Source: Candidatus Ozemibacter sibiricus (GTDB lineage Bacteria; Muiribacteriota; Ozemobacteria; Ozemobacterales; Ozemobacteraceae). Taken from it: 64,000 nucleotides of DNA. The notes under the pieces are model-generated. The model saw nothing but the letters and a program-made list of their open reading frames with translations. It had not been told where the DNA came from and did not search any database. The position numbers and the translations under genes were made by a program. Positions 14,051 through 30,141 of this stretch are shown piece by piece. Each line of letters begins with the position of its first letter. Position 1 is the stretch's first letter. The stretch covers positions 1 through 64,000 of the forward strand of contig QOQW01000004.1 in the NCBI GenBank assembly GCA_003327425.1, in the 5' to 3' direction.

Positions 14051-15588
14051 AGCGTCGGGGCCCTTTCGGAAAGAGACTCGACCGGCCCAGGCGTGTCGCC
14101 GGCGGCGGCCACCGTCGCCGCCGAGGCTCCTGCCCCCCGCGGGGGAACCCTCGTCGCGGCCTGGGCATCGGGGACGGTCGAGGCCACCGCCAGGCCCGCC
14201 ATGGCTGGCGAGGCTGGCAAGGCTGGCGAGGCTGGCGAGGCCGTCGAGACCGGTGAGGCCTTCGGAGTCGCCGAAGCGGTCGCGGTCGTCGTCGCCGGCA
14301 CCGGCACCGGTTCCGACGTAGCCTCGGCATCGGAAGAAGCCAGAGCCGACGGATCGAGGCCGAACAGCCGGGCCAGCACGGCCAGTTCGTCGGCTCCGAC
14401 CTGGGCGCGCTCTTTGAGGGTGATCATCGGATGGTGCAGCCATTTCCCCATCAAGGCCCGGGTCAGGCGCTCGAGATCGGCGCGCAGGTCGGCCGGCAAC
14501 GGTCGGCTGGCGGGAAAGATCCGGTCCAGTTCGGCCCGGCGGATCTCGTCGGCCCGGGCCCGCACCGCCGCCAGCAGCGGCGCCACGGCGAACGTCTCGA
14601 GCGAGCGGTCGAAGCGGGCCAGCTCCTCGTCGATGATCGCTTCGACCTTGGGGGATTCCTGGCGGCGCAGCTCGAGGCTCTCGTCGACCACCTGCTGCAG
14701 ATCATCGATGTCATACAGGAAGACATTCTCGAGGTCGGCGCACTCCGGCTCGATATCGCGGGGCACGGCGATGTCGATGGCGAACAGGGGGCGGTCGTGG
14801 CGAGCGGCCATGACCTCGGCCAGCAGCTCGCGCGTGATGACCGGTCGCGGTGCCCCTGTCGAGCTGATCAGCACATCGGCCTGCGCCAGCTGGGCGGCCA
14901 GATCGGCGAGGGAGGCGGCCCGCCCGCCGTAGAGACGGGCCAGTTCTTCGGCCCGGGCCGGCGTGCGGTTGGCGAACAGCAGGGCGCCAACGCCGCGATC
15001 GCGCATCTGGCGGGCGACCAGCCCGGCCATCTCGCCGGCGCCCACGACCAGGGCGGTGCAGCGGTCGAGCGGGCCGAAGATGGAGCGGGCCATTTCGACC
15101 GCGGCCGAGGCGATGGACACGGTATTTTCCGAGATGCGGGTCTCGGCCCGCACCCGTTTGCCGACCTCGAGCGCCCGTTGGAACAGGGCGTGCAGGTGCT
15201 TCCCGACCGACCCGGCCGCCGCCGCGGCCTGATAGGAGGCCTTGACCTGGTGCAGGATCTGCTGCTCGCCCAGCACCATCGAATCGAGGCCGGCGGCGAC
15301 GAGCAGCAGATGCCGCACGACGTCCCTTCCCCAGCAGCGATAGGCATAGGGCTCGATCTCGCTCCAGGAACGATTCTCGCTGGCCAGCCACGCGGCGAAC
15401 ATGGCCTGGGCCGCCGCTGCGTCGCCATAGAAGTAGGCCTCGACCCGGTTGCAGGTCAGGACCGTCACCGCTTCCATGGCCCGGCCATCGGCGCCGGGCA
15501 GCCCGGAGACGCACAGCCCGGCGAACCGCTCCCGTACCTCGACGGGAGCGGAGGCATGATTCAGCCCGATTAAATAGAACCCAGCCAT
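14047..15588 (-). CDS. hemA: Glutamyl-tRNA reductase HemA
   Basis: 513 residues from the ATG at 15588 (a GTG one codon earlier is the alternative). NADPH-dependent reduction of glutamyl-tRNA to glutamate-1-semialdehyde, first step of C5-pathway tetrapyrrole synthesis. Visible are the catalytic cysteine in TCNRVE (about C46), SMVLGEQQILHQVK, the NADPH-binding VVGAGEMAGLVAR and ANRTPARAEEL, the spinal helix and the C-terminal dimerisation domain. The family ends near residue 420-430; about 85 further residues form a low-complexity Ala/Ser/Pro/Thr tail encoded partly by a 9-bp tandem repeat. The gene overlaps the hemC fusion by 4 bp. Glu-tRNA-aminomutase (HemL) and HemB are not in the window. 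Confidence 0.96.
   Translation of the reverse strand: MAGFYLIGLNHASAPVEVRERFAGLCVSGLPGADGRAMEAVTVLTCNRVEAYFYGDAAAAQAMFAAWLASENRSWSEIEPYAYRCWGRDVVRHLLLVAAGLDSMVLGEQQILHQVKASYQAAAAAGSVGKHLHALFQRALEVGKRVRAETRISENTVSIASAAVEMARSIFGPLDRCTALVVGAGEMAGLVARQMRDRGVGALLFANRTPARAEELARLYGGRAASLADLAAQLAQADVLISSTGAPRPVITRELLAEVMAARHDRPLFAIDIAVPRDIEPECADLENVFLYDIDDLQQVVDESLELRRQESPKVEAIIDEELARFDRSLETFAVAPLLAAVRARADEIRRAELDRIFPASRPLPADLRADLERLTRALMGKWLHHPMITLKERAQVGADELAVLARLFGLDPSALASSDAEATSEPVPVPATTTATASATPKASPVSTASPASPALPASPAMAGLAVASTVPDAQAATRVPPRGAGASAATVAAAGDTPGPVESLSERAPTL
14204..14239. repeat. 9-bp tandem repeat in the hemA tail
   Basis: Four consecutive copies of GCTGGC(G/A)AG at 14204-14239, with a degenerate fifth at 14240-14248. 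They encode the repeated Ser-Pro-Ala type residues of the disordered HemA C-terminal tail and are a likely slippage site. Confidence 0.7.
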
Positions 15589-15657
15589 CACTGTTGCAGC
15601 AAGAATGGGCAGGACAAACGAAGACGTTTTTCGTCGCGTCCACCCCTGAGCGGCCCC

Positions 15658-15766: not shown

Positions 15767-16204
15767 ATGAGTTTCGAAGATATTCCCGCCGTCATCGATC
15801 ATGCCATCCGCCTCGAAGAAGCGACAGCAGCCTTCTATGACCACCTGCTGAATCTCGACCTCGAACCTGAAGCGGCCACACTGGTCCGCTCCCTTGTGGC
15901 CCAAGAAAAAAAACACGCCAAGCAACTGGCTGAATTCAAAAAAACCTGCACTGCCGCCGGTTTTATACAGAACCTCCCAGCTTTTCCGCAGCCGACGCTT
16001 GACCTGCTGGCCGAACGCCGCCGGCTTTCCCTTGGCGACCTCCTCCAGATCGCCATGCAGGTGGAAGTGGCCAGTCGGGATTTCTATCAGTCGGTGGCCC
16101 AGCTGGCTCCTAATGAGCCGATGCGCAAGCTCTTCGGGGCTCTCACCCGGTTCGAACAGAGCCACATCGATCTCCTGACCCGTCATTTAGCCTATTCCAA
16201 CTAG
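15767..16204 (+). CDS. Ferritin-like/rubrerythrin-type diiron protein
   Basis: 145 residues forming a predicted four-helix bundle. Diiron ligands of the ferritin/rubrerythrin type are all present: Glu17/18 (RLEEATAAFYDHLL), the first ExxH at E47-H50 (EKKH), Glu100 (MQVEVASRDFY) and the second ExxH at E130-H133 (EQSH). There is no rubredoxin domain and no cysteine tetrad, so it is a short erythrin-like protein that may reduce peroxide or handle iron and could use a neighbouring cytochrome or flavoprotein as electron donor. The ribosome site GGAGG precedes the ATG. It stands alone before the Rnf/cytochrome operon, and a helical relative without these ligands closes that operon (24274). Confidence 0.8.
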   Translation: MSFEDIPAVIDHAIRLEEATAAFYDHLLNLDLEPEAATLVRSLVAQEKKHAKQLAEFKKTCTAAGFIQNLPAFPQPTLDLLAERRRLSLGDLLQIAMQVEVASRDFYQSVAQLAPNEPMRKLFGALTRFEQSHIDLLTRHLAYSN

Positions 16205-16528: not shown

Positions 16529-16894
16529 ATGCGTCAGTTTTTGTACGGGTGCGGGGTCGCGTTGATGATGGGACTCCTGGTAGTGGCCGGAACGAACTTA
16601 GCGACCGCCGAGGATGCTCCGACCAGCGACAGTCCTGCCAAGGCCCCGGCTGAGTTTTTGTTCACCAAGGTCGGCGATGCCGGTCAGGTCAAGTTCAAGC
16701 ACGAAGGACACGGCAAGGCTGCATGCTCGGATTGCCACGAAGGGGCTGCTCCTCTTTTCCCTCAAGTTCGGGCTAAAGAGCCGTACAAAATGGCCGACAT
16801 CTACGCGGGCAAATACTGCGGAGCCTGCCATGACGGCAAAAAAGCCTTCGCCGCCAAGGGCGATTGCACCAAGTGCCACGCTTCTGAAGAGTAG
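16529..16894 (+). CDS. Triheme c7-type periplasmic cytochrome
   Basis: 121 residues: signal peptide (residues 1-27, ending NLATAED), then a c7/c3-like domain with exactly three CXXCH sites at 66-70 (CSDCH), 97-101 (CGACH) and 113-117 (CTKCH). Additional histidines in KFKHEGHGKA can serve as distal ligands. The segment MADIYAGKYCGACHDG recurs nearly unchanged in the 12-haem lipoprotein at 28261. It is a soluble periplasmic electron carrier. It is the first gene of a tightly packed operon with Rnf subunits, an NqrF-like flavoprotein and two octaheme cytochromes, so it probably exchanges electrons between the membrane complex and those cytochromes. Confidence 0.9.
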   Translation: MRQFLYGCGVALMMGLLVVAGTNLATAEDAPTSDSPAKAPAEFLFTKVGDAGQVKFKHEGHGKAACSDCHEGAAPLFPQVRAKEPYKMADIYAGKYCGACHDGKKAFAAKGDCTKCHASEE

Positions 16895-16908
16895 GGTCCG
16901 ATCAGCCC

Positions 16909-17198
16909 GTGAACACTGCCGCCCACCCGTCTGATGCCCCTGGTGTTTGCATCAATTGTCTCGATTGCATTTCGGTCTGTCCCGCGGGATTGCTGCCACA
17001 TTATCTGTATCACTTCGCGTTGGCCGGTCTGACCGAGCAGCTCGAGACCTACCGAGCGCATGACTGCTCTACGTGCGAAGCCTGCTCAGATGCTTGCCCG
17101 GCCTGCCTTCCTCTGGCGCAGCAAATTGCTGACGCCAGGGCTCGTCTTCAGGCCCCCCCATTTCTAAACCCTCCGCACCCATCAGCACCGACCAATGA
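16909..17198 (+). CDS. Mini-RnfC: stand-alone double [4Fe-4S] domain of the RnfC C-terminus (3' end uncertain)
   Basis: GTG start 14 bp after the cytochrome stop, with AGGG upstream. Residues 14-24 (C14, C17, C20, C24, CPAGLLP) and 53-63 (C53, C56, C59, C63, CPACLPL) are the two CxxCxxCxxxC cluster motifs of the RnfC C-terminal region (PAGLLPHYLYHFA; LPLAQQIADAR). The SLBB/NADH-FMN body of RnfC is absent. As written the frame stays open to 17625, overlapping rnfD by 430 bp with sequence that looks non-coding. Next to a C7 tract at 17153-17159, one extra C would end the protein at 17198 in an ATGA overlap with rnfD, and one fewer would end it at 17167. I give the coupled end (about 97 residues) as most likely. 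Probably a peripheral iron-sulphur subunit of the Rnf-like complex. Confidence 0.65.
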
Positions 17199-18163
17199 AC
17201 CGCATCGCCCCTGGTGGCCGGACACCCATCGCGCCTCGGAAACGCCTCATCCGATTTCCGTGGGTCATCAGCGTGGCCGTTGTGCCTCTCTATGTCGGGG
17301 CGGTCGGTCGGTATGGGCGGAAAGTTCTGGCGATGCTTGGACTCAGCCTGCTGACTGGGTTCCTCGTCGACACGCTGGCCTTCCGACTGCGAAGCGATCG
17401 CGCACCGCGCTGGTCATGGGTGATCTGGGTGGTCTTCCCGCTGGCCTTGTCGGCGGGTGTACCGCTTTGGCTCGTTCCCATCGGCTTGAGCTTCGGGCTG
17501 GTCTTTGGCCTTCACCTGTTCGGCGGCTACGGGCGCACCTTGTTTCCCACCGCAGCCGTCGGAATTGTGTTCCTCGCCCTCGGGTATTCCACCGCCTTCA
17601 ACATCACCACCAAACCGTTCGCTGATCCCGATCTGGGGTTCTCGCGATGGGCATCCCAAATTCCGCTGGCAGGCACGGTTTTCGCCGATCTTCGCAAGTT
17701 CGGAGATATCCCGATCACCGACTTTCTGACAGGTCGAATTCCAGGTGCCATCGGTGAATCGTACGGGGGCTATCTGATTCTACTGGGCGTGGTCCTGCTG
17801 ATCGCCGGGTTTATCGACTGGCGGTTCGTTTCCGCGGTGATTGGAGGCATGGTCACCTTTGCTTGGCTGGGTGCCCACTGGTTTCCGGGGCAGGTGCTCC
17901 CCCCCCACAACCAATTGCTGGCCGGCAGTTTCCTGCTCTACCTGACGGTGTTCGTCCCCTCTGATCCCTTCGCTCTTCCCCGAACGCCTGAAGGACGGTG
18001 GGCTGGGGGCCTGCTGTTCGCCTTTTTCACCGTGATGCTGCGCAGTTTCTCCGGATTCGCCGAAGGAGTCTGGTTCGCGGCGCTGCTGCTGGCCGTTTTT
18101 TCCCCGCTGATTGACCAGCTCGTCGGCGAGCATCTATACCGCCGGCCCCGAGGTTCCGCATGA
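17195..18163 (+). CDS. rnfD: RnfD/NqrB-family membrane subunit
   Basis: 322 residues, about ten hydrophobic segments, usual family length. Recognisable RnfD/NqrB blocks include FGGYGRTLFPTAAVG, the periplasmic loop around residues 165-190 and the C-terminal LTVFVPSDPFALPRTPEGRW. The characterised proteins carry FMN covalently on a Thr in this loop. Here the corresponding region reads GRIPGAIGESYGGYL without an obvious acceptor Thr, so flavinylation is doubtful. It should form the ion-translocating membrane core with RnfA, RnfE and RnfG. The start overlaps the probable mini-RnfC stop and the stop overlaps rnfG by 4 bp. Confidence 0.88.
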   Translation: MNRIAPGGRTPIAPRKRLIRFPWVISVAVVPLYVGAVGRYGRKVLAMLGLSLLTGFLVDTLAFRLRSDRAPRWSWVIWVVFPLALSAGVPLWLVPIGLSFGLVFGLHLFGGYGRTLFPTAAVGIVFLALGYSTAFNITTKPFADPDLGFSRWASQIPLAGTVFADLRKFGDIPITDFLTGRIPGAIGESYGGYLILLGVVLLIAGFIDWRFVSAVIGGMVTFAWLGAHWFPGQVLPPHNQLLAGSFLLYLTVFVPSDPFALPRTPEGRWAGGLLFAFFTVMLRSFSGFAEGVWFAALLLAVFSPLIDQLVGEHLYRRPRGSA

Positions 18164-18741
18164 CCCAGACCTGGCGCGACCTGTGGTTCATGCTGGTGCT
18201 GACGACCATCTGCACCATTCTGCTGGTCGTCGTCGAGGGCATCTATCAGACTCGGATGGCCACCGATCCCAGCTTGATGCGACGCGCCTTGCAACTGGTT
18301 GGATTGCCGCTCGGCGAAGATGTCCGGAGCACGTTCGAGCAGACCTTTACGACAGTCGCCCGGAAAGAGTATCCCGGCAGCTTTTTCATCGGAAAGCAAA
18401 ACCCAGCCATGATCATCCGCCAAGAAGAAGGGGCGGGGTTGTGGGGGAAAATCATCCTGCTCGTCGCCTATGATCTGAGGCGAGGCGCCATTTTAGGCAT
18501 CGACGTGCTCGAGCACAGCGAAACCCCGGGCCTGGGGGCTCGCATCGAAGAAGAGAAGTTCCGCGCCCAATTCCGCGGCCTGATCGCTCGGCATGGTGTG
18601 CGCGCGGCCAAGATCAAGTTTAAAGAAGGCGAATTCGACGGAGTCACCGGGGCGACCCTGACATCGAAGGCCGTCGAGGAAATCATCAATGCCGCCATCC
18701 GTAAGATCAAAACGGTAGCCGGGCCAGGGGGAACGCCATGA
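18160..18741 (+). CDS. rnfG: RnfG/NqrC-family FMN-binding subunit
   Basis: 193 residues: one N-terminal transmembrane helix (about 9-27) and a periplasmic FMN-binding domain. The flavinylation motif is intact at D160-GVTGATLTS, with Thr166 as the expected phosphoester-linked FMN site, and the family motif ETPGLGARI is at about 121-129. Attachment needs an ApbE flavin transferase, which is not in the window. Electrons would pass from the FMN of RnfG toward periplasm-facing cytochromes, which fits the cytochrome genes in this operon. It overlaps both rnfD and rnfE by 4 bp. Confidence 0.92.
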   Translation: MTQTWRDLWFMLVLTTICTILLVVVEGIYQTRMATDPSLMRRALQLVGLPLGEDVRSTFEQTFTTVARKEYPGSFFIGKQNPAMIIRQEEGAGLWGKIILLVAYDLRRGAILGIDVLEHSETPGLGARIEEEKFRAQFRGLIARHGVRAAKIKFKEGEFDGVTGATLTSKAVEEIINAAIRKIKTVAGPGGTP

Positions 18742-19358
18742 GCCTCACCAACACCCAAGCCTGGAAGGTGTTCGCCGAAGGCCTGTGGAAGAACAATCCG
18801 ATCTTCATCATGGTACTTGGCATCTGCAGCTCGCTGGCCGTCACCACGTTCGTCAAGAACGCCTTCGTCATGTATCTTGGCGTGGCCTTCGCCACCGTCT
18901 TCACCTCGGCCATCGTCGCCGCCATTCGCAAGCGCATCCCGGCCACGTACCGGATGCTCGTCTTCATGATGATCACCTCGACGCTGGTCATCGTCTTCGA
19001 CCGGCTGCTGAAATTGACCTTGCCCGCGGTATCGAAAGAAATGGGCCCCTATGTCGGGTTGATCATCACCAACTGCATCGTCATGGGGCGCTCCGAAGCC
19101 TTCGCCATGTCGAACACTCCCTGGCTGTCGGCTCTCGATGGCTTGGGAGTCAGTACGGGTTATGGGCTGGTCTTGCTCGCCATCGCGGTGTTGCGCGAGG
19201 TGTTCGGCATGGGCACATTGTTGGGGACGCCAGTCATGCCGGGAGGCTATCAGCGCTGCGGCCTGCTCATTTCGGCTCCGGGAGCCTTTCTGTGCCTGAC
19301 CGTCCTGCTGTTTTTGGCCAATTTTATCCGCGAGGCGAGGGGCGAGGGAAAAAAATGA
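18738..19358 (+). CDS. rnfE: RnfE/NqrD-family membrane subunit
   Basis: 206 residues with six predicted transmembrane helices and close similarity to RnfE/NqrD throughout (KNNPIFIMVLGICSSLAVT, VGLIITNCIVMGRSEAFA, REVFGMGTLLG). Cys30 and Cys113 sit in the half-helix motifs that, with the matching cysteines of RnfA, bind the intramembrane iron centre in Nqr/Rnf. It forms the electron- and ion-conducting heart of the complex with RnfA. ATGA overlaps at both ends indicate tight co-translation. Confidence 0.94.
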   Translation: MSLTNTQAWKVFAEGLWKNNPIFIMVLGICSSLAVTTFVKNAFVMYLGVAFATVFTSAIVAAIRKRIPATYRMLVFMMITSTLVIVFDRLLKLTLPAVSKEMGPYVGLIITNCIVMGRSEAFAMSNTPWLSALDGLGVSTGYGLVLLAIAVLREVFGMGTLLGTPVMPGGYQRCGLLISAPGAFLCLTVLLFLANFIREARGEGKK

Positions 19359-20143
19359 AGAATTCCTTTCTCCTGACGCTTCTGGCTGGCCTGATCTGTG
19401 GTCTCGGGCCGGGGGCCCCCTGCCTCCTGGCCAATACGCCCACCATGCCGATCACCCCCCCGATTACCGCGCCGGCCAGCGTCATTTCCACGCCAACCAG
19501 CGCCACCCCAGCGCCGGCCACCAGTTCCCATGTCACCCCCGGACCGTTCGCCATCGATGATCCCATGCGACTGTTGGTCATCTTCTTCGCCTCGGTCCTG
19601 ACCAATAACATTGCCCTGGCCTACTTCATCGGGATGTGCGCCTTTCTGGCCCTGTCGAAGAACACCAAGGTCGCCTTCGGCATGGGAGCCGCTGTTACCT
19701 TCGTGACCGGCCTTACCGCGATGGCCAATTGGTTGCTCAACCATTTCGTTCTGGTGCCGCTCGGCCTCGAATCCTTCCAATTCCTTGTCTTCATTCTGAC
19801 CATCGCCACTATCGTCCAGTTTCTCGAGCTTTTCATCGATCGGTATTTTCCACCCTTGTATGAGGCCTTCGGCATCTTTCTCCCCCTGATCACCGTCAAC
19901 TGCACCGTGCTCGGCACCTCGCTGTTCATGGTCCTGCGACAGTACCGCTTCTGGGAGGCGACCGTATTCAGTTTCGCGACCGGCCTGGGCTGGATGCTCG
20001 CCATCCTGTTGTTGGCAGGCCTGCGCCACCATCTGCCCTTCTGTCGGCCGCCCCGGTACCTGGGCGAGATCGGCACCGCTTTGTTGCTGGCCGGTTTGAT
20101 GGCGATGGCCTTCAACGGCTTCTCGGGCATGGTGAAACTGTGA
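19355..20143 (+). CDS. rnfA: RnfA/NqrE-family membrane subunit with N-terminal signal-like extension
   Basis: 262 residues, versus about 190-200 for normal RnfA/NqrE. The conserved part starts near residue 71 (MRLLVIFFASVLTNNIALAYFIG) and keeps both cysteines of the intramembrane iron site, C95 (IGMCAFLAL) and C183 (VNCTVLG). In front is a signal-peptide-like helix (MKNSFLLTLLAGLICG) and a Thr/Pro-rich spacer of about 40 residues. The ATG at 19355 overlaps the rnfE stop, which supports the long form. An internal ATG at 19565 would give the classical length but has no evident ribosome site. The extension would lie in the periplasm and could dock a cytochrome. Confidence 0.9.
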   Translation: MKNSFLLTLLAGLICGLGPGAPCLLANTPTMPITPPITAPASVISTPTSATPAPATSSHVTPGPFAIDDPMRLLVIFFASVLTNNIALAYFIGMCAFLALSKNTKVAFGMGAAVTFVTGLTAMANWLLNHFVLVPLGLESFQFLVFILTIATIVQFLELFIDRYFPPLYEAFGIFLPLITVNCTVLGTSLFMVLRQYRFWEATVFSFATGLGWMLAILLLAGLRHHLPFCRPPRYLGEIGTALLLAGLMAMAFNGFSGMVKL

Positions 20144-20170
20144 TGGGAAACAACATCGGGTGACCCGCTG

Positions 20171-21265
20171 ATGCTGTCGACGTTGCTCATCGCCCTCCTA
20201 GCCCTCAACGGGCTGATCCTTGGCATGTGCCTGTTCCTGCTCGGGGCTCGTCATTGGCTGGCTAGCTATGGCCAGGTCAAGATCCGAGTCAACGACGAGA
20301 AAGAGCTGCTGGTGCAGGGCGGCAATTCTCTCCTGCTCTCCCTTGTCAGCCAGAAGATCTTCATCCCCTCCGCCTGCGGCGGGCGGGGAACGTGCGGGTA
20401 CTGCCGCGTCAAGGTGCTTGAAGGGGGTGGCTCGGTTCTGGCTACCGAGCAGATGATTCTGACCCCAGCCGAGATCAAGGAAAAGAAGCGGCTGGCCTGC
20501 CAGGTGCGTGCCCGGCACGACCTGGTCGTGCAGGTCCCAGAGGAGTTCCTGGCCATCAAGGAATTCCAGACTGTGGTCAGTAAGGTCGAAGTGATGACAG
20601 ACCTGATCAAGAAGATCACTTTCAAATTGATCGACCCCAAAACCATCGTCTTCAAACCTGGCCAGTATGTCCAGGTCAGCTTGGTCCGCCCCGGGGAAGA
20701 GCCAATCTATCGCGGGTATTCGATCGCCAGCTCCCCGTTCGCCAATGACATCATCGAATTGAACGTACGGCGGGTCGAAGGCGGAGTGATGAGCACCTAC
20801 CTGCATACCCTCAAAGAAGGCGACTCGATGGTGCTGTCAGGCCCTTACGGCGAGTTCTTCCTGCAAGAGACCACCAACCGCAGCGTCGTCTGCATCGCCG
20901 GCGGGGTCGGTTTGGCGCCCATGAAATCGATCATTGCCTATTTGACCGAAAAGAAGATCGATCGCCGGGTCTACCTGTTCTATGGCGCCCGCACCCTGCC
21001 GCTTCTTTACGACCACCAGGTATTCGTCGAGATGGCCAAGCGCAATCCGAATTTCCGGTACATTCCTGCCCTCTCTGACGATACCGTCGGCAGCGAATGG
21101 AACGGTCACCGTGGCTTGATCACCAAGGTCTTCCAGGAGGTCTTTCCCGCCGGGGAACCAGCCGAAGCCTACCTTTGCGGCCCGCCCGTCATGATCGATG
21201 CCCTCCTGCCCTTGCTGGCGGCCAAAGGCATTCAGCCGAATGATATCTATTACGACAAGTTCTGA
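20171..21265 (+). CDS. NqrF-like NADH-oxidising flavoprotein (2Fe-2S/FAD)
   Basis: 364 residues in NqrF order: an N-terminal transmembrane helix (1-25), a plant-type [2Fe-2S] domain with ligands C69, C75, C78 and C110 (ACGGRGTCGYC, LACQ), then a ferredoxin-reductase module with the FAD motif RGYSIAS (181-187), the NAD pocket GGVGLAP (244-250), CGPPVMID (336-343) and the NqrF-like ending DIYYDKF. In Nqr this subunit oxidises NADH and passes electrons to the membrane core. It follows rnfA by 27 bp, where an Rnf operon would normally have rnfB and a full rnfC. It is therefore the likely NADH entry point of this complex. Somewhat shorter than typical NqrF (about 400 residues). Confidence 0.88.
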   Translation: MLSTLLIALLALNGLILGMCLFLLGARHWLASYGQVKIRVNDEKELLVQGGNSLLLSLVSQKIFIPSACGGRGTCGYCRVKVLEGGGSVLATEQMILTPAEIKEKKRLACQVRARHDLVVQVPEEFLAIKEFQTVVSKVEVMTDLIKKITFKLIDPKTIVFKPGQYVQVSLVRPGEEPIYRGYSIASSPFANDIIELNVRRVEGGVMSTYLHTLKEGDSMVLSGPYGEFFLQETTNRSVVCIAGGVGLAPMKSIIAYLTEKKIDRRVYLFYGARTLPLLYDHQVFVEMAKRNPNFRYIPALSDDTVGSEWNGHRGLITKVFQEVFPAGEPAEAYLCGPPVMIDALLPLLAAKGIQPNDIYYDKF

Positions 21266-21298
21266 AGTCTGACGATTTGGCACGACAAGGAGATATCC

Positions 21299-22753
21299 AT
21301 GCCTGAAAGACCCCGCCTGATCATCGCCTGTTTTTTGGTGTATTCCCTGGTGACGACGGTTTCCCCGTTGGCTGCTCGCGCCCAGGACAAAGGGCTTTAC
21401 ACGACGACGGCGATGGCCACCCCCCAGACGCAGAAATGTCTCGAGTGCCATGCGTCGATGAATCCCAATCTCTGCATGTCCTGGGAACGAGGCAAACATG
21501 CTACGCGCGGGATCGGCTGCTACGAATGCCACATGGCCAGCGATACAGATCCCGATGCCTTGGTCGACCACCACGGGTTCACCATCAGCCCGCTGGTTAC
21601 CCCGAAGGATTGCGGGCGTTGCCATCCCGCCGAGACCGCCTCCTTTCTTGGATCGCAGCATGCGAAAGGCGGGCGGGTGTTGCACTCGCTGTCGAACTAC
21701 TGGGGCGAGGTGGTCGAAGGGTATGCCGCCTCTCTCGGTGGGTGCCAAGCCTGCCACGGCTCAAAAATCAAAGTCGACCCGAAGACCCGCAAGATTTCGG
21801 CGGACGGGTATCCCAACTACGGCATCGGACGAATCAATCCCGACGGCTCCGAAGGCAACTGCTCGGCCTGCCACCAGCGCCACGATTTCCGTCTTGCAGC
21901 GGTGCGACGTTCCGAAGTCTGCGGGCGCTGCCACATAGGCCCCGACCACCCTCAGATCGAGATCTGGCAAGAATCGAAGCACGGCAACGCCTTTGATGAG
22001 ATGAACAAAGGCGTTGATTTCGACAAACCGTCCCTCTTGTTGGGTCAAGATCCGATCGCGGTCCCCAACTGCGTGACCTGCCATCTAGGAGGCACCATCG
22101 CCAGCGGGAGCGGTTCTACCCATGATCCAGGCGCGCGCCTCAGCTGGAATCTGCGGGATGCTATCAGCGTGCGCCGGAATGACTGGCGGGCCAACCGCTC
22201 GCGGATGCAGGCCGTCTGTCGCAATTGTCACAGCCCAGCCTTCGTCAAGAGCCATTTCATCCAGCTCGACAAGGCCGTTGCCCTCTATAACCACAAGTTC
22301 GCCCTGCCTGCCAAGGAAATCATCGAGGCCGTCCGAGCCGCCGGCAAACTCGACCCCTCGCCGGTCAACGAAAAGCTGGAGCGCGATTTCTGGCACTTGT
22401 GGCACCACCAGGGGCGCCGGGCCCGGATGGGCGTGGCCATGATGGGCGCTGATTACGTGCAATGGCAGGGCTTCTACGAAGTAGCGCTGCTCTTCTACTT
22501 CGAGTTCCTTCCCGAGGCCGAGCGGCTGCTGCCGGGCGTCACCGCCGCCATCATGGACCGTCCCGAGCACCGCTGGCTGAAAAAGGCCATCCATACACCG
22601 GAAGACATCAAGAAAGCCATCGCCGACGGCATCGCTTTCTGGGAGGAAGCATCACCAGAGCCCGGGCCGCCCGCCACCTCTTCCACACCCACTCCGAGTT
22701 CCGCCTCGGCATCGGCACCAATCCCAACCGCCACCGACTCACGACAGCAGTAG
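21299..22753 (+). CDS. Octaheme cytochrome c, hydroxylamine oxidoreductase (HAO) family, copy 1
   Basis: 484 residues: signal peptide (to about 28), then eight CXXCH motifs at 47, 74, 105, 149, 188, 208, 258 and 307. HAO-family landmarks are present: GPDHPQ with Asp216-His217 after the sixth motif, matching the catalytic Asp-His pair of HAO, SKHG, and the C-terminal block HHQGRRARMGVAMMGADYVQWQGFY in which Tyr386 occupies the region of the tyrosine that cross-links haem P460. Here WQG stands where I recall WHG as common in the family. Members oxidise hydroxylamine or hydrazine or reduce nitrite or hydroxylamine; direction cannot be read from sequence. The acidic, Pro-rich C-terminal tail has no membrane anchor. 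It lies 33 bp after the NqrF-like gene and directly before a paralogue. Confidence 0.88.
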   Translation: MPERPRLIIACFLVYSLVTTVSPLAARAQDKGLYTTTAMATPQTQKCLECHASMNPNLCMSWERGKHATRGIGCYECHMASDTDPDALVDHHGFTISPLVTPKDCGRCHPAETASFLGSQHAKGGRVLHSLSNYWGEVVEGYAASLGGCQACHGSKIKVDPKTRKISADGYPNYGIGRINPDGSEGNCSACHQRHDFRLAAVRRSEVCGRCHIGPDHPQIEIWQESKHGNAFDEMNKGVDFDKPSLLLGQDPIAVPNCVTCHLGGTIASGSGSTHDPGARLSWNLRDAISVRRNDWRANRSRMQAVCRNCHSPAFVKSHFIQLDKAVALYNHKFALPAKEIIEAVRAAGKLDPSPVNEKLERDFWHLWHHQGRRARMGVAMMGADYVQWQGFYEVALLFYFEFLPEAERLLPGVTAAIMDRPEHRWLKKAIHTPEDIKKAIADGIAFWEEASPEPGPPATSSTPTPSSASASAPIPTATDSRQQ

Positions 22754-22754
22754 G

Positions 22755-24215
22755 ATGATGGGCGCATACCGCAGAGTCATCATGGCAAGCGCAGTGGTCG
22801 TTCTCTGGTTCCTTCTGATCGGCCTGCCGGGGGCGACCGCGGAACTCCCCCTCTCCCAAGCGACCCAGAGCTGTTTGAAATGTCATGAATCGATGTCACC
22901 CAACCTCGTCGAGAGCTGGCGAAAGAGTTCCCATGCCCAGCACGGCATCGGTTGCTTCGAATGTCATCAGGCCAACGCCTCCGATCCAGACGCCATCCCT
23001 GACCACAACGGACATATCATCAGTACCTTGGTCACCCCGAACGATTGTGGCCGCTGCCATGCCGAGCAAGCGGCCAGCTTCGCTCGCTCGCGGCATGCCA
23101 CGACCGCCCTCCGAATGCGACAACCTGATGGCCAGGCCTTTGATGGCACCAAACCAGAGGTGTTCCTCGGGGGAGTGATGCAAGGGATGGCCAGCTTCCT
23201 GAACGGCTGCGAATCGTGCCACGGCAGCCAGGTCGCCATCGACCCCGAGACCCGACTGCCCCTGTCCCGCACCTATCCCAACCACGGCATCGGACGAATC
23301 AATCCCGACGGTTCGGTCGGCGCCTGCTCGGCCTGCCATCAGCGGCACGAGTTCCGCATCGCCAGTACCCGGCAGCCAGGCGTTTGCGGTCGCTGCCATC
23401 TCGGCCCCGATCACCCCCAACTCGAAATCTGGAAGGAATCCAAGCACGGCCTCACGTTCCATACCACCAATGACCTCGTCGACCTAAACCGCCGCCCCTT
23501 GCTGCTCGGGCGGCATCCGGTAGTCGTTCCCACCTGCGCGACCTGCCATCTTGGTGGGACCATCGGCGGCACTGCTCAGACCCATGACCCCGGCACCCGC
23601 CTCAGCTGGCGCACCGGACTCGAGGTCAGTTCCCGCACCACCGACTGGTCCGACAAGCGGTTGGCCATGTTCAATGTCTGCGCCAACTGCCATTCGATGA
23701 ACCTGATTATCAGCCATTACGAGCATCTCGACAAAGCGATCGCCCTCTACAACAAGAAGTTCGCCGAACCCGCCCGCGAGATTCTCGATCGGTTGAGGCA
23801 GGCCGGCAAGCTCGATCCTGCCCCATTCAATGAGAAAATCGAGCTGATCTGGCTCTCTCTGTGGCACCATGAAGGCCGCCGGGCCCGCATGGGCGCCGCC
23901 ATGATGGGCCCCGACTACGTGCAATGGCAGGGGTTCTACCAGGTGGCCTTGCGGTTCTATTTCGAATTCCTCCCTGAAGCTGAGCGACTCAGCCCGGGCA
24001 TTACCGCCGAGATCGCTGCCCGGCCCGAGCACAGGTGGTTGACCGAGATCGGGGGCACCAAGGAGGAAGCCGAAGCGGCCATTCAGCGCAGTATTCGGTT
24101 CTGGCTTGAATCCCAACCACCAGATCCAGGATCTGGCCAACCAGACGACGGGGCAAGCGCGACGATGGAAACGGCCCCTGCCATTTCCACCCCAGCCACC
24201 GAAAAAAGCCACTGA
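22755..24215 (+). CDS. Octaheme cytochrome c, hydroxylamine oxidoreductase (HAO) family, copy 2
   Basis: 486 residues, clearly paralogous to the preceding gene along its whole length. Signal peptide (to about 29), eight CXXCH motifs at 40, 67, 98, 152, 191, 211, 261 and 309, Asp219-His220 in GPDHPQ, and HHEGRRARMG with MMGPDYVQWQGFY (Tyr388). The insertion around residues 118-140 (MRQPDGQAFDGTKPEVFLG) is longer than in copy 1. It begins one base after the copy 1 stop, so the two are almost certainly co-translated and may form a heteromeric complex analogous to HAO trimers. Expected location periplasm; substrate probably a nitrogen oxide or hydroxylamine, with the neighbouring Rnf/Nqr-like pump or c7 cytochrome as redox partner. 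Confidence 0.88.
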   Translation: MMGAYRRVIMASAVVVLWFLLIGLPGATAELPLSQATQSCLKCHESMSPNLVESWRKSSHAQHGIGCFECHQANASDPDAIPDHNGHIISTLVTPNDCGRCHAEQAASFARSRHATTALRMRQPDGQAFDGTKPEVFLGGVMQGMASFLNGCESCHGSQVAIDPETRLPLSRTYPNHGIGRINPDGSVGACSACHQRHEFRIASTRQPGVCGRCHLGPDHPQLEIWKESKHGLTFHTTNDLVDLNRRPLLLGRHPVVVPTCATCHLGGTIGGTAQTHDPGTRLSWRTGLEVSSRTTDWSDKRLAMFNVCANCHSMNLIISHYEHLDKAIALYNKKFAEPAREILDRLRQAGKLDPAPFNEKIELIWLSLWHHEGRRARMGAAMMGPDYVQWQGFYQVALRFYFEFLPEAERLSPGITAEIAARPEHRWLTEIGGTKEEAEAAIQRSIRFWLESQPPDPGSGQPDDGASATMETAPAISTPATEKSH

Positions 24216-24273
24216 TGGTCGCCTGCGCTCGCCATTCGTTCTGATTTCGCCCCACGGCAGGAGGTAGCAAGAC

Positions 24274-24729
24274 ATGGTTGGAAAGCAGGTCGGAGACATT
24301 CTGGCCCAGGCACAGCAATTCCACCAGGATTTGAGTCGCTTCTACGACAACCTCGAGAAGGTGGCCGATCGTGAACGAGTGAAGATGTTGCTGAAATATT
24401 TCAGCCACCAGGAGCAGGCGCTGCAAGAAAGCCTGCGCGATTTCGAAGCCTCGATCGGACAGGAGGTGCTATCCACCTGGTATAAATTCCCACCTGAGTC
24501 AGAAGGCAAGGACCTTCTCGAACGACTGCACCTCGAGCCCTCGATGACGGTCAACCAGGTGGTGGAGATCGCTCTGGCCTTGATTGATTGTCTGGCCAAG
24601 GTCTATCAGACCGCCGCTGAAACCGCCCCCACCGAAGAGGTTCGCGAGGTGTTCCGCCACCTCCTCCGTCTCGCTGACCGCCAGCGGGACCGGCTGCAGG
24701 AGCAAGGCGAGGCGGTAAAAGATCTGTAG
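24274..24729 (+). CDS. Ferritin-like helical protein lacking diiron ligands
   Basis: 151 residues, almost entirely helical, with heptad-like stretches (FHQDLSRFYDNLEKVADRERVKMLLKYF; LLRLADRQRDRLQEQGEAV). Length and helix pattern match the ferritin-like gene at 15767, but the ExxH ligand pairs are missing: the equivalent helix reads HQEQALQE and the last helix ADRQRDRL. It is therefore unlikely to bind a diiron centre and may be a structural or regulatory partner. A good AGGAGG precedes the ATG and it is the last gene of the Rnf/octaheme operon. Function unknown. Confidence 0.6.
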   Translation: MVGKQVGDILAQAQQFHQDLSRFYDNLEKVADRERVKMLLKYFSHQEQALQESLRDFEASIGQEVLSTWYKFPPESEGKDLLERLHLEPSMTVNQVVEIALALIDCLAKVYQTAAETAPTEEVREVFRHLLRLADRQRDRLQEQGEAVKDL

Positions 24730-24931: not shown

Positions 24932-24978
24932 CAACTGGTATTTCTTTTTCCTGCAGTACCCCCTCGAAGGCGGTGGAT

Positions 24979-26031
24979 ATGGTCGGAAAGCTGGTCTCGG
25001 GCCTGAAGTGGTGGCTTCCCCTCGTTCTGGCGGTCAGCGCCGCCTCGTTGGCGCTCGGCGGTTCGCCGACCGCCGGCCCCGGGTTCATGAGCCGGACCGC
25101 CTGCCTGAAGTGCCACAAGGGACAGGCGATGAAAGATACCGTGCACGCCCGTCTCCCCGTCGGCACGCTGCGCCTCGACAAGCTCGAGTGCGAGGCCTGC
25201 CATGGCCCCGGAGAAGCCCATGTCGTCGAGAGCGGTGTCAAGGAGAAGATCGTCCGGCGACCTGCCGCCCGCGTGGTGAAAGACCTGTGCCTCGCCTGCC
25301 ACCCCAAGGACCGGGCCGATCTGGCCGCCTGGAAACGTGATGCCCACTACCAGCACCCCGACCTCGACTGTCTGACCTGCCACGATATCCACAGCGGCAA
25401 GAACGTGGCGCAACTGGTGAAAGGCCAGAACGACCTGTGCCTCGGGTGCCACCAGGACATCGGCGCCCAGTTCGCCCGTCCCTATCGCCATCCGCTCGGC
25501 CAGGGACAGCTCGAGTGCGCCGACTGCCACAACGTGCATGGCAACGACCGGATGCGCGGTCGGCCCGCTGCTCGCCATGCCATGTGCACGAAATGCCATA
25601 GCGAGGTGAAAGGGCCCTTCATGCATGAGCACAAGGCCGTCACCGATGACGAAGGCTGCCTGAACTGCCACCAACCGCACGGGGGGGCGGCGCGCAAACT
25701 GCTGAAGCAGACCGACAACCAGCTCTGCCTCGTCTGTCATCAGGATGAACTCGTCCTCAACCCGATCACCACAGGGTCTGACCGGCGGTCTCGAACCACG
25801 ACCGAGCACTCCCGGCTGCCCGTGTTCCAGGGCCGATGCGCGACCTGCCACGGGACACCGTTCAACCCCGTCGTCGGGGTTCACACCATCGCGGTGCCTG
25901 CCCACGAATGCGCCCTCTGCCACGCCAGCATCAAGGGGGTCGACCACACCCGCTTCATCGCCCAAGGCCGATGCATCGACTGTCATACCGACATCCACGG
26001 CTCCAATCACTCCCGGGCCTTCCTGGATTGA
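24979..26031 (+). CDS. Periplasmic 12-haem c-type cytochrome, MtrA/DmsE-like
   Basis: 350 residues from the ATG at 24979 (AAGG upstream; a GTG two codons earlier is possible). Signal peptide about 1-34, then twelve CXXCH motifs, beginning CLKCH (42), CEACH (71), CLACH (104), CLTCH (131), CLGCH (154), CADCH (180), CTKCH (203) and CLNCH (227) and ending CIDCH near the C-terminus. Repeats of the type CxxCHxxHG and many spaced His residues suit bis-His coordination, as in MtrA/PioA/DmsE decahaem proteins; two extra motifs make it longer than the usual ten-haem form. With the following barrel it should form an electron wire through the outer membrane. Confidence 0.9.
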   Translation: MVGKLVSGLKWWLPLVLAVSAASLALGGSPTAGPGFMSRTACLKCHKGQAMKDTVHARLPVGTLRLDKLECEACHGPGEAHVVESGVKEKIVRRPAARVVKDLCLACHPKDRADLAAWKRDAHYQHPDLDCLTCHDIHSGKNVAQLVKGQNDLCLGCHQDIGAQFARPYRHPLGQGQLECADCHNVHGNDRMRGRPAARHAMCTKCHSEVKGPFMHEHKAVTDDEGCLNCHQPHGGAARKLLKQTDNQLCLVCHQDELVLNPITTGSDRRSRTTTEHSRLPVFQGRCATCHGTPFNPVVGVHTIAVPAHECALCHASIKGVDHTRFIAQGRCIDCHTDIHGSNHSRAFLD

Positions 26032-26041
26032 GGTTAACGCC

Positions 26042-28231
26042 ATGTGCATCCGCATCATCCGCCGCTTCATCGCCCACCTCGCTCTGGTCCTGTTCCTGAT
26101 GCCGCCGCTCGGCTGGGCCATCGCGCCAGAAGACGCCGCCCAGCTCGCGAGCAAGGTCGCCCAGACCTGGACGACCGACGGCAGCACCCGCATCCGGACT
26201 GTGCGCGACCGCGACGGCAGGATCCTCTCGCAGCGCATCTACGATCGCACCACCGGCCGCTTCCTGCGGGAAGGCGCTCCCGGCATCATGTCGGGGGCCA
26301 TCGCCAGCCCTGCCGCCGCAACGACGCCGACGCCCGCGCCGCCGGCCTGTGAGACCGCCAGCACCGAACAGAAGGCCGAGCCGAAGAAGAAGGCCAAGAA
26401 GAAGATCGAACCGCCAGCCTGGACCGGCCACCTGACGCTCGGCAGCCGCCTCGACGAGGTCGACCAGGGCCGCGTCCGTTCCTACGAGGAGCTGTACAAA
26501 GGCGAAAAGGATGGCATCGGCGTGGCGCACTTCGACCTGCGCCGGGTATCCACCCGCCGTCTGTTCCGGATCGGCGCCGAATCGTTCGGCACCTGGAACC
26601 ACTCGATGGGCGCCCGCCTCGATTTCCGGCATGAGTCGGCCATGAGCATCCGGGCGAAGTTCCGCCGCACCGAATGGGATTTCGGCACGGTGCTCGATCC
26701 CGAAACGCTGCGCACCTCCTTCCAGCTCGATGCCGGGTGGGACCGCCCCGACCTGCGCTATTGGCCTCGCGTCGTGGTCGGCTTCCGGGGCCAGGAGATC
26801 ACCGGCGACATGCTGCGCCTGCAAGGCAGCACCGCCCAGGTGCACCCGCGCGACCGGTTCGCCAATGCCTGGAACCCTTCGTCCCGCGATTTCACCTTCG
26901 GGGTGTTCGTCGGCCAGGGCCGATGCGATGCCTCGCTGTCCTATGCCGAGAATGTCAACCGCAACAGCGACACCAAACTCTACCAGCAGGACATCGATTT
27001 CAACGGCATCCGTGATCTGCTCCAGATCTGGAAGTGGCAGCAGAACTTCAGCAAAACCCTGACCGGGAAGGTGGACTACCGCTTCAACGACCGCTATTCG
27101 CTCGGGATCAGCGTTTCGACCACGCAGACCGACAACGAGTTCGACACCATCCGGCTCCGGCAGGAGCCGGTCGGCTTCGCTGGCCAGCGCACCGACCAGA
27201 CCGGCCTGCATGGCCAGGATCACGGCTGGCTCGACGGCCACACCCGCCTCGAAGAGTACGTGCTGCAGGCCCGCCCCGACGACCGCTGGGACGTCGAAGC
27301 CCGGATCGAACGCCGCACCATGCGCGCCCGCGCCGACGGCCGGCTACGGTGGTTCGACAACGCGGGAATCCTGACCGCCACAGATGACACCGCCACCTGC
27401 AACCGCATCGATGAGGGACTGGCCGAGGTGCGGGCCGACTATCACGGCTTCGCCCGGACCCCGATCTATGTCGGCTACCGTTGGCTCGACCGCGAAGAAC
27501 TCGATGACGACACCCTCGGCACCTACGCTTACAATGCGGCAGGCAACCGCACCTGGCAGCCAACCACCCGCGCCCTCGACCGGTGGTCAACTCTCGAATC
27601 GGTCGAGAAGATGGGCTTCGTTGGCGTGCATCATGCCTTCGACCCGCGTTGGAGCATCGATCTGCGTCACGAGACCGGGCAGGTCACCGACCAGCATGGA
27701 GCACGAACCGGCTACAACCTCAAGAGCCTGGTCGGCACCTTCGACAAGACCCGCCAGGTAGCCGTGGTACGCGCCCGCCCCGACCCCGACTGGTCTATGC
27801 TGCTGAAACTGCGCCGTGACCAGACCGACCGGGGCGACATCGGCGCCGCGGACGAACGCCGGGCCGTCGCCCTCTTCGCCACCTGGACTCCCGCCCGGCG
27901 CAAGTTCACGGTCGGCAGCGGCTACACTCGCACCATCGGCGATCTGCAGCTGCGCACTGCCAGCTTCCAGGACGAGATCGAGACCGTCTCGCTGAACGGC
28001 ACCTACCGGTTCGACGATCGCTGGTCGGCGACCCTCGACTTGTGGCAGGCAGCGACGGGCGATGTCACCCGCCAGGACTACCAGACCGGTCAGATCAAAC
28101 TGCGACGCCAGCTAAGGAAAGGCCATGAGGCCTCGATCGGCTATGCCCGACGCTTCTTCGAGAACCGCGACCGCCCGGTCGAGGACTTCACCGCCCACGT
28201 CTTCCTGTTCGCCTACGAGCTTCCCTTGTGA
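26042..28231 (+). CDS. Outer-membrane beta-barrel of a porin-cytochrome complex (MtrB/PioB-like)
   Basis: 729 residues from the ATG at 26042, 10 bp after the cytochrome stop. A signal peptide (to about 28), a soluble segment, a Lys-rich linker (KAEPKKKAKKK, about 115-125) and then roughly 600 residues of alternating polar/hydrophobic strands (TGHLTLGSRLDEV, SLSYAENVN, YSLGISVSTTQT, ATLDLWQAATGD) ending in an aromatic strand with FLFAYELPL. This is the profile of large MtrB-type barrels that encase a multihaem cytochrome. It lacks the N-terminal CXXC typical of Shewanella MtrB. Its position between a periplasmic and a lipoprotein multihaem cytochrome supports the conduit role; similarity to a named family must be checked by profile search. 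Confidence 0.8.
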   Translation: MCIRIIRRFIAHLALVLFLMPPLGWAIAPEDAAQLASKVAQTWTTDGSTRIRTVRDRDGRILSQRIYDRTTGRFLREGAPGIMSGAIASPAAATTPTPAPPACETASTEQKAEPKKKAKKKIEPPAWTGHLTLGSRLDEVDQGRVRSYEELYKGEKDGIGVAHFDLRRVSTRRLFRIGAESFGTWNHSMGARLDFRHESAMSIRAKFRRTEWDFGTVLDPETLRTSFQLDAGWDRPDLRYWPRVVVGFRGQEITGDMLRLQGSTAQVHPRDRFANAWNPSSRDFTFGVFVGQGRCDASLSYAENVNRNSDTKLYQQDIDFNGIRDLLQIWKWQQNFSKTLTGKVDYRFNDRYSLGISVSTTQTDNEFDTIRLRQEPVGFAGQRTDQTGLHGQDHGWLDGHTRLEEYVLQARPDDRWDVEARIERRTMRARADGRLRWFDNAGILTATDDTATCNRIDEGLAEVRADYHGFARTPIYVGYRWLDREELDDDTLGTYAYNAAGNRTWQPTTRALDRWSTLESVEKMGFVGVHHAFDPRWSIDLRHETGQVTDQHGARTGYNLKSLVGTFDKTRQVAVVRARPDPDWSMLLKLRRDQTDRGDIGAADERRAVALFATWTPARRKFTVGSGYTRTIGDLQLRTASFQDEIETVSLNGTYRFDDRWSATLDLWQAATGDVTRQDYQTGQIKLRRQLRKGHEASIGYARRFFENRDRPVEDFTAHVFLFAYELPL

Positions 28232-28260
28232 TCCGACACATCCTGCAAGGAGTGATGCGC

Positions 28261-30141
28261 ATGTCGTCCCATTCGCCCCGAATCCTGGTCTACCTGGCCC
28301 TATGTGGTATCGTGGCCGTCGGTCTGGCCGGCTGCGTCCTGAAACCCGGCAACAACGACTCGTCGTCAGCCCCCCCCTCGCTGCTGCCCACCACGACCAG
28401 CCCGTCCGACCCCCTCTTCACCACTCCGGTGACCTATATGGGCAACGCGAATGTGGCGACCGTTTCATTCTCACACTTCACGCATGTCCAGCAGGCCAAT
28501 CAGAGCTGCGCCCTCTGCCATCCCTCGCCCTGGAACATCGCCAGCGCCACGGGCAATGCCAGCCTCCTGGCAGGCCTTCGCACCATCGCCATGACCATGG
28601 CCGAGATGTACCAGGGCAAATACTGCGGCAAATGCCACAACGGCGTGAGCGCATTTTCCGTCAAGACAGGCTGCAGCACCTGCCATGCCAATCTGCCGGC
28701 CAACGGTCCCGATGTGGTGTTCAACCTCGCCAACTCCGGCAAGGTCCTCTTCAAGCACAGCAGCCACGTCAATTCCTACAAGAAGACCTGCAACGAATGC
28801 CATGATACCCCCTGGCCGATGAAGAGCGAGACTGGCAAGCACACGATGGCCCAGATGTATGCCGGGGAATCCTGCGGCAAATGCCACACCGGCGCGGTCG
28901 GGCAAGGCTTCGACCTGAAACTTTCGCAGAACTGCCAGAAATGCCATGCCGACTCCCATGAAGGGATCAGCCCATCGGTCATCTCTGCCACGAACTGCGT
29001 GAAATGCCATCAGAAGATCGTCGAGGAGTTGAATACCCCGAATCCCGGCAAGCTCTTCCATGCCCGCGATTTCATCAACGGCTACAGTTCGAGTCCGTCG
29101 TGCGCCGAGTGCCATGCCCACGAAGCGGTGACCAAGGGCAAAGCTGGCGCGACCGGCGTCAGCTCCGGCTTTTCCAACACCACCATCACCTGCCAGACCT
29201 GCCATTTCACCAATGAGACCGAACAACTGGCCGCCGGCGCAAAGCATGACTTCCGCCTGCGTAAGGCGTCTCGCGAGCTGTGCGCGACCTGCCACCATCT
29301 GCGGTACACCTACGATCCGGCCTTTCCCGAAAAAGTTGGATTCAAAGCCGGCGATATCTCCACCAGCAACATTCCTCAATACCTTATGACCATGACCTAC
29401 CGGATCGGTACTCGTACACTGCCCAGCCTGGGCGATGCCTCCCTGATCGCCTCCACCACGGCCGCGGCACGCAGCAGTTCGGCCGCCTATTTGGCCAGTG
29501 TTACCCAGTATCTCCTCACCAGCGCCAAATCCGCGCCGCCCACCAGCGACGGGTTGATCCATGGCGGCAAATATCCGCACTATTCTGGACAATACGATCT
29601 CCTCATGGGCGCGGAAGCCGACACCACCGTGCCCTTCTCCAAGGACCTGAATGGCGATCCCCTGGCGTACCCCGAAACCAACCACAAGCAATTCGCCAAT
29701 GCTTGCACCGAATGCCACATGCATCGCACCGCAGGCTCGGGAAAATTCGGGCACACGTTCCTGACCACCGAGGAGGCGTGCAAGAAATGCCATACCAGCG
29801 GTATCAATAAGCATGACTACATGAACCAGATCGAGAACGACGACAACCACACCGGTCTGCTGGTCGATCTCGGTCATGAACTCGATGCAGATGGCAATGG
29901 GCAGGTCAAATGGGGACGCAGCGGCGAAGATCAAGATCTGGTGAAGGTCATGAACAGCAACGTTATTTCATCAGGATCCAAGCTCCTCTTCCTCGGGGCC
30001 GCCTGGAACTTCCAGACCATCGAAGAAGACCGCAGCAAGGGGATTCACAACTTCAAGTATGCCAAGGCTCTCCTCGAAAACAGCCTCAAGATCATCAAGC
30101 AGATCAAAGCCCGCGAGAATATCACCTTCCCCTTGCCCTGA
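28261..30141 (+). CDS. Lipoprotein 12-haem c-type cytochrome (outer-surface terminal cytochrome candidate)
   Basis: 626 residues from the ATG at 28261, placed by AGGAG eight bases upstream. The signal peptide ends in a lipobox (VGLAGC, about Cys23), so the protein is a lipoprotein. Twelve CXXCH motifs follow, from CALCH and CGKCH through CKKCH in the last third. The first half contains two c7-like triheme modules with segments AEMYQGKYCGKCHNG and AQMYAGESCGKCHTG, close to the c7 cytochrome at 16529. The rest is haem-sparse, and the C-terminal 120 residues have no CXXCH. As third gene of the cytochrome-barrel-cytochrome set it is the likely outer-face electron exit, functionally like MtrC/OmcA but not evidently homologous. 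Confidence 0.85.
   Translation: MSSHSPRILVYLALCGIVAVGLAGCVLKPGNNDSSSAPPSLLPTTTSPSDPLFTTPVTYMGNANVATVSFSHFTHVQQANQSCALCHPSPWNIASATGNASLLAGLRTIAMTMAEMYQGKYCGKCHNGVSAFSVKTGCSTCHANLPANGPDVVFNLANSGKVLFKHSSHVNSYKKTCNECHDTPWPMKSETGKHTMAQMYAGESCGKCHTGAVGQGFDLKLSQNCQKCHADSHEGISPSVISATNCVKCHQKIVEELNTPNPGKLFHARDFINGYSSSPSCAECHAHEAVTKGKAGATGVSSGFSNTTITCQTCHFTNETEQLAAGAKHDFRLRKASRELCATCHHLRYTYDPAFPEKVGFKAGDISTSNIPQYLMTMTYRIGTRTLPSLGDASLIASTTAAARSSSAAYLASVTQYLLTSAKSAPPTSDGLIHGGKYPHYSGQYDLLMGAEADTTVPFSKDLNGDPLAYPETNHKQFANACTECHMHRTAGSGKFGHTFLTTEEACKKCHTSGINKHDYMNQIENDDNHTGLLVDLGHELDADGNGQVKWGRSGEDQDLVKVMNSNVISSGSKLLFLGAAWNFQTIEEDRSKGIHNFKYAKALLENSLKIIKQIKARENITFPLP

Follow-up and report, generated by a model that had tools for sequence, protein, structure and literature searches.

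A ten-gene operon in a 64,000-nucleotide stretch of DNA from Candidatus Ozemibacter sibiricus (hereafter, the window) probably encodes a third, re-plumbed branch of the RNF/NQR ion pumps, in which electrons would run from NADH through NqrF, the E/A subunits and the flavin mononucleotide (FMN) of the G subunit to periplasmic cytochromes, with ion pumping. The host is an uncultured bacterium of the phylum Ca. Riflebacteria with a 5.7-Mb genome, in which the operon lies on contig C35; Ca. Rifleibacterium amylolyticum is among the named relatives in the same family. The genes form a single, tightly packed operon on the plus strand (16529-24729), from a triheme c7 cytochrome to a degenerate ferritin-like protein, and profile matches confirmed this run as it had been described in a first-pass annotation made from the window sequence. 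Operons of this type were found in Riflebacteria, Lentisphaerae and Spirochaetes. The most telling feature of the operon is the loss of the FMN site in its D subunit.

The flavin site of D and the shrinkage of the C subunit

In the Rnf of Acetobacterium, FMN is covalently bound to T156 of RnfD, and riboflavin is held by N123 and D249 (PMC11889175). The D subunit of the window operon (17195..18163, +; PF03116, 3.3e-42) and its relatives were aligned to the Acetobacterium Rnf structures, and the ApbE motif D-x-x-[ST]-x-A-T was gone from all of them. The Asp of the motif was substituted in every aligned member of the clade, and the acceptor column held T, S, P, D, H or N. By comparison, the acceptor Thr was kept in the readable canonical RnfD and NqrB sequences, many of them from the same genomes, with Ser in one. 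The equivalent of N123 was lost in the window genus, in G007, in Lentisphaerae and in Spirochaetes, and kept in most of the Riflebacteria with a short octaheme cytochrome. For the Lentisphaerae D, the NqrB/RnfD fold was seen in an AlphaFold model. As judged from these alignments, the covalent-FMN motif of D is lost throughout the examined clade.

The C subunit is reduced as well. In the window, the mini-RnfC (16909..17625, +) matches only positions 362-432 of the 435 of TIGR01945 (3.7e-13), that is, the C-terminal double-[4Fe-4S] domain (approximately residues 9-81), in agreement with the C-terminus of RnfC in the PDB, and both of its CxxCxxCxxxCP motifs are intact. No NADH/FMN domain of RnfC was recognisable in the operon, which upheld the earlier description of an operon with NqrF and no NADH-binding RnfC body. 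The frame of the mini-RnfC stays open as far as 17625, with an overlap of about 430 bases with D, because some 300 bases that precede D in the sister genome G013, where a stop is present, are missing here (DNA comparison with L032/L033); the 3' end of the gene in the window is uncertain. Across the clade, the C subunit measures about 300-350 aa without the NADH domain in Spirochaetes and Lentisphaerae and about 90-100 residues in the window genus and G007, and there is none in most Riflebacteria. Read as a series, these sizes indicate that RnfC was lost stepwise, to a ferredoxin stub without the NADH domain or altogether.

The remaining parts of the pump were kept. The covalent-FMN motif of G ([ST]GAT) was present in every tested member of the clade, reading DGVTGAT in the window (18160..18741, +; TIGR01947, 4e-25; PF04205, 6.3e-18). 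The E subunit (18738..19358, +; PF02508, 2e-48; NF006777, 3e-63; C30 and C113) and the A subunit (19355..20143, +; PF02508, 9e-49; TIGR01940, 2e-55; TIGR01943, 6e-54) each retain two [2Fe-2S] cysteines in the clade, except for the A of G007, which has one. NqrF (20171..21265, +; TIGR01941, 1.4e-80; PF00111, PF00970, PF00175) has its N-terminal hydrophobic helix and its [2Fe-2S], flavin adenine dinucleotide (FAD) and NADH domains, and ApbE is encoded in the genome. At the level of sequence, both cuts, in the flavin site of D and in the C subunit, hit the electron-return arm; since the D and C relay appears dismantled, the U-shaped electron path would be interrupted beyond FMN-G, on the side of the periplasm.

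The proposed electron path and its closest known systems

According to the proposed scheme, electrons from NADH would enter the FAD and [2Fe-2S] of NqrF, pass to the E/A cluster, the Na+-moving step in Rnf, and arrive in the periplasm at the FMN of G. With the return relay of D and C apparently dismantled, FMN-G would hand them to c-type cytochromes (c7 and/or octaheme). In the last and weakest step, the octaheme would reduce a small molecule, the likeliest acceptors being nitrite, hydroxylamine or some comparable N-oxide. The outcome would be a quinone-independent oxidation of NADH coupled to ion export, and the losses suggest that NADH electrons are drained out of the cell and not returned to quinone or NAD. 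We infer the exit at FMN-G and the pumping from the Rnf mechanism. Movement of Na+ by the A. woodii enzyme is attributed to A/E and FMN-G, with D as a carrier of returning electrons only; the ion-moving part of Rnf/Nqr is disputed, being either the E/A pair with G or D (NqrB) (PMC11889175).

The fuller version of the proposal, namely a quinone-free, ion-pumping NADH:cytochrome c (ultimately NADH:nitrite or hydroxylamine) oxidoreductase that consists of an RNF/NQR core with its return arm cut, in a lineage as old as NQR, is put forward tentatively, with rather less than even confidence. If true, NADH and a periplasmic acceptor would be joined by a very short respiratory chain. If the complex pumps, pumping would not depend on the flavin relay of D, and a U-shaped course of the electrons would be optional.

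As the first-pass annotation had supposed, no characterised complex of this composition was found in the open-access literature: no published system combined the full core and NqrF with these losses, and nothing was found on an octaheme with NqrF and Rnf or on NqrF with a hydroxylamine oxidoreductase (HAO). The operon shares the D, G, E and A core and an RnfC remnant with RNF (RnfABCDGE), but it lacks RnfB, the NADH/FMN domain in C and the FMN motif in D, and has NqrF instead. The two-subunit Nqr/Rnf-like systems (PMC8238504, PMC11334425) likewise have a B/D-type subunit without the flavinylation Thr and a proposed one-way flow from NAD(P)H to the outside; however, they are devoid of E/A and have the NAD domain fused to the membrane subunit, whereas the window operon has the full core and a separate NqrF. 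In Methanosarcina acetivorans, an Rnf core is also linked to a multiheme c-type cytochrome, MmcA (review PMC12174285), but all six RnfABCDGE subunits are present there, whereas electrons would enter through NqrF in the window operon, with an HAO-type octaheme as the main cytochrome.

The resemblance to Na+-NQR (NqrA-F) comprises NADH entry via NqrF, a core of the B/C/D/E type and a position as sister clade in the tree of D, E, A and F. NqrF and the B/D/E-like subunits scored as Nqr: D was nearer to NqrB, E nearer to NqrD, and A about equally near to NqrE and RnfA. The core thus leans to Nqr, and the Rnf names given to it earlier suited only G, which was nearer to RnfG. An ordinary Na+-NQR-like NADH:quinone reductase, with the cytochrome genes as mere neighbours, would account for these scores, and the missing NqrA is no obstacle to it, since a second set in the same genome has the FMN motif and no NqrA either. 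It was nonetheless considered unlikely. Unlike NQR, the window operon carries a ferredoxin-type RnfC stub, lacks the B-type FMN motif and has an octaheme partner; the FMN motif of D is lost in this clade only, the octaheme linkage recurs in three phyla, and menaquinone genes of the futalosine route were found in none of 15 genomes, where no search for the classical Men pathway was made.

Besides the window operon, the genome contains a complete Rnf that includes RnfC and RnfB (L029) and an NqrBCDEF operon with the FMN motif kept (L030, G000:C55), which makes three Rnf/Nqr sets. A PF02508 search of the genome gave six E/A-type genes, two per set, and NqrA was not found in the window operon, in the L030 operon or anywhere in the genome. 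RnfB was absent from the window operon and from the related operons, as had been noted for the former, but it does occur in the genome, in the separate canonical rnf operon. The presence of rnfB and a full-length rnfC elsewhere had been named in advance as evidence against a distinct complex; this complete normal Rnf, however, possesses A, D, E and G subunits of its own and therefore does not absorb the genes of the window operon. A broken or mis-assembled Rnf was ruled out by the conservation of the operon in G013 and by the separate complete Rnf. The window operon is thus a third, separate pump.

Octaheme cytochromes and their linkage to the pump

The two octaheme cytochromes c are OCC1 (21299..22753, +; PF13447, 1.9e-19; signal-like N-terminus) and OCC2 (22755..24215, +; PF13447, 3e-22). 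All eight heme motifs of the octaheme are CXXCH, and six more histidines are invariant. Both by sequence and by predicted fold, the best solved relative of OCC2 was IhOCC (4QO5), followed in the fold ranking by the reducing HAO-like protein of Kuenenia (Kustc0457/0458; 6h5l) and then by HAO; these two nearest relatives share the octaheme fold, and we know of no linkage of either to an ion pump. Eight CXXCH motifs and a predicted HAO fold place the protein among the HAO-type octahemes. Its sequence alignment to HAO stops short of the region of the tyrosine that, in hydroxylamine-oxidising HAO, is cross-linked to the active-site heme. NrfA and ONR nitrite reductases carry a CXXCK heme, and none was present among the eight motifs of the octaheme. 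Taken together, the relatives fit a reductase, and the assignment of an N-oxide substrate (nitrite or hydroxylamine) is a guess. Reduction of nitrite is known from other octaheme cytochromes, one of which reduces tetrathionate as well (PMC6449678).

Since Rnf-type pumps are reversible (PMC11889175) and the octaheme falls within the HAO superfamily, the system might also operate in reverse, the octaheme oxidising hydroxylamine in the manner of HAO and the ion gradient driving electrons up to NAD+. This was judged very unlikely in view of the nearest relatives, 4QO5 and the reducing 6h5l, and of the C-terminal truncation of the octaheme in most Riflebacteria.

The genetic linkage of an NADH-fed Rnf/Nqr-type core to multiheme cytochromes, which the first-pass annotation had proposed, recurred in Riflebacteria, in a Lentisphaerae genome and in Spirochaetes. 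The order D-G-E-A-F-OCC was observed in many Riflebacteria and in L204, and the order C'-D-G-E-A-F-ferritin-OCC in L077 (Lentisphaerae) and in L079 and L203 (Spirochaetes). Among 24 genomes of the family, 17 had both the motif-less D and the octaheme, two had this D only, five had neither and none had the octaheme only, so that all 17 octaheme-bearing genomes also had the special D. The co-occurrence (p = 0.0005) is indicative only, as related genomes were treated as independent and G006 was counted as pump-less despite a scattered remnant of the pump. In that remnant (L192:4849-10176), other genes are interspersed among those for A, E, NqrF, a ferredoxin resembling the mini-RnfC and a 428-aa protein in which G is fused to a D-like stretch. 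In G002, G014, G016 and G017 the genes of the operon are dispersed, yet both the octaheme and D are retained.

A single origin of the octaheme link was not supported, as the octaheme tree put the Lentisphaerae and Spirochaete copies among unlinked ones. It seems that the octaheme gene became linked to the pump on two or more occasions, and this repeated joining gives moderate support to function rather than common descent as its cause.

The triheme c7 cytochrome (16529..16894, +; TIGR04257, 1.9e-21; three CXXCH) is a candidate acceptor in the window genus. It is probably periplasmic, to judge by an N-terminal signal-like stretch, and has orthologues in the same position in G013 and G012. It belongs to the nanowire_3heme domain family, and a putative porin-cytochrome conduit (24973-30141, +) directly follows the operon. 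It comprises two 12-heme cytochromes, the second of which bears a lipobox-like LAGC and is a lipoprotein candidate, and a barrel candidate of 729 aa (26042-28231). Extracellular electron transfer in this genome, from c7 and the octahemes through the conduit to metals, would make use of all these parts. The only genomes with a barrel homologue, however, were G001 and G008, both of which lack the special D and any closely related octaheme, and the barrel was absent from G013, which has the operon; other members of the clade have no such conduit nearby. A conduit as a fixed part of the pump system was rejected for the same distribution of the barrel, and the extracellular route was given a low probability.

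A stress or overflow sink, in which NADH electrons would remove peroxide, NO or nitrite through the cytochromes and ferritin-like proteins with no energy conserved, is highly improbable: ferritin/rubrerythrin-like genes do recur in the operons, and several relatives are without nitrate reductase candidates, but a mere sink would not need the E/A pump subunits, which retain their cluster cysteines.

Lineage, contrary evidence and gene neighbourhood

In the D+E+A+F tree, with RNF as the outgroup, the FMN-less clade was monophyletic (bootstrap 95); it joined a Riflebacteria D-G-E-A-F operon in which the motif is kept (100), and the pair was sister to the NQR group (92). The tree thus places the lineage as an old one beside NQR and not as a recent shuffle, and the earlier description of the operon as chimeric was abandoned. 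The clade marks a state with NqrF, without RnfB and with a C subunit still bearing [4Fe-4S], and bears on the origin of NQR. It suggests that the recruitment of NqrF preceded the loss of the clusters from the C subunit, in agreement with the NqrA subunits of some NQR operons that still bear two [4Fe-4S] motifs; this order would refine the scheme of PMC4014512.

Such subunits, NqrA-like and with both [4Fe-4S] motifs intact, were observed in otherwise normal NQR operons (L193:3197-4660; L176:3590-5128; L178:5450-6805), and further [4Fe-4S]-bearing ones in L209-L211, L213, L214 and L219; they represent an apparent transition from RnfC to NqrA. Another operon, L186 (G024:C232), has the order D-G-E-A-F without C or octaheme, keeps the FMN motif and is sister to the FMN-less clade.

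Several points weigh against the proposed re-plumbed branch. The Asp equivalent to D249, a riboflavin ligand, is kept in nearly all the D subunits of the clade, and in the alignment the acceptor column of the window D is occupied by Thr, with the surrounding motif absent, so the claim of a lost site rests on the motif and on the clade pattern. D itself is still present though its known flavin task seems gone, and it may serve a reduced return path. The cytochrome is not obligatory, as the pump occurs without the octaheme in G007 and G012 (and in the G006 remnant) and without an octaheme beside it in the Spirochaete operons L185, L207 and L208; other acceptors must therefore exist. No molybdopterin oxidoreductase and no nitrate reductase candidate was found in G018, G010, G004, G003 and G015; it is thus unlikely that the cells of these relatives themselves respire nitrate, any nitrite or hydroxylamine would have to come from outside, and the nitrogen-oxide respiration proposed in the first-pass annotation was not supported as a nitrate-respiration module. 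The root of the tree was set by taking RNF as the outgroup, and rooting on the E/A duplication (paralogue rooting) did not settle it. The menaquinone search, finally, covered the futalosine route.

Within the operon, 4-base overlaps occur at D/G, G/E and E/A, and the remaining gaps, from c7 through the last gene, are of 58 bases or fewer. G013, of the same genus, has an identical gene order, split over two contigs, through both octahemes and the ferritin-like gene. The A subunit has a signal-like N-terminal extension of more than 60 residues (19355-19550, +), and its start lies inside the stop of E (ATGA).

The last gene (24274..24729, +) does encode a ferritin-like protein, as annotated, but its diiron site is degenerate and a Pfam search gave nothing above the cut-off; an orthologue 86% identical to it lies in the same place in G013. 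In other phyla, homologues of this protein are encoded after nqrF in NQR operons of the ordinary kind (L190:10068-11005; L209-L211), and a role as an NQR accessory protein is possible. A rubrerythrin/ferritin-like protein with the full E...ExxH...E...ExxH diiron pattern is encoded 325 bases upstream of the operon (15767..16204, +; PF02915, 7.8e-9), and its membership of the operon is uncertain. Additionally, heme biosynthesis genes (11291-15591, -) lie back to back with the cytochrome operon, a glutamyl-tRNA reductase being followed by a long hemC/cobA/hemD-like fusion, as identified by eye, and the hemA neighbourhood is also kept in G012 and G013.

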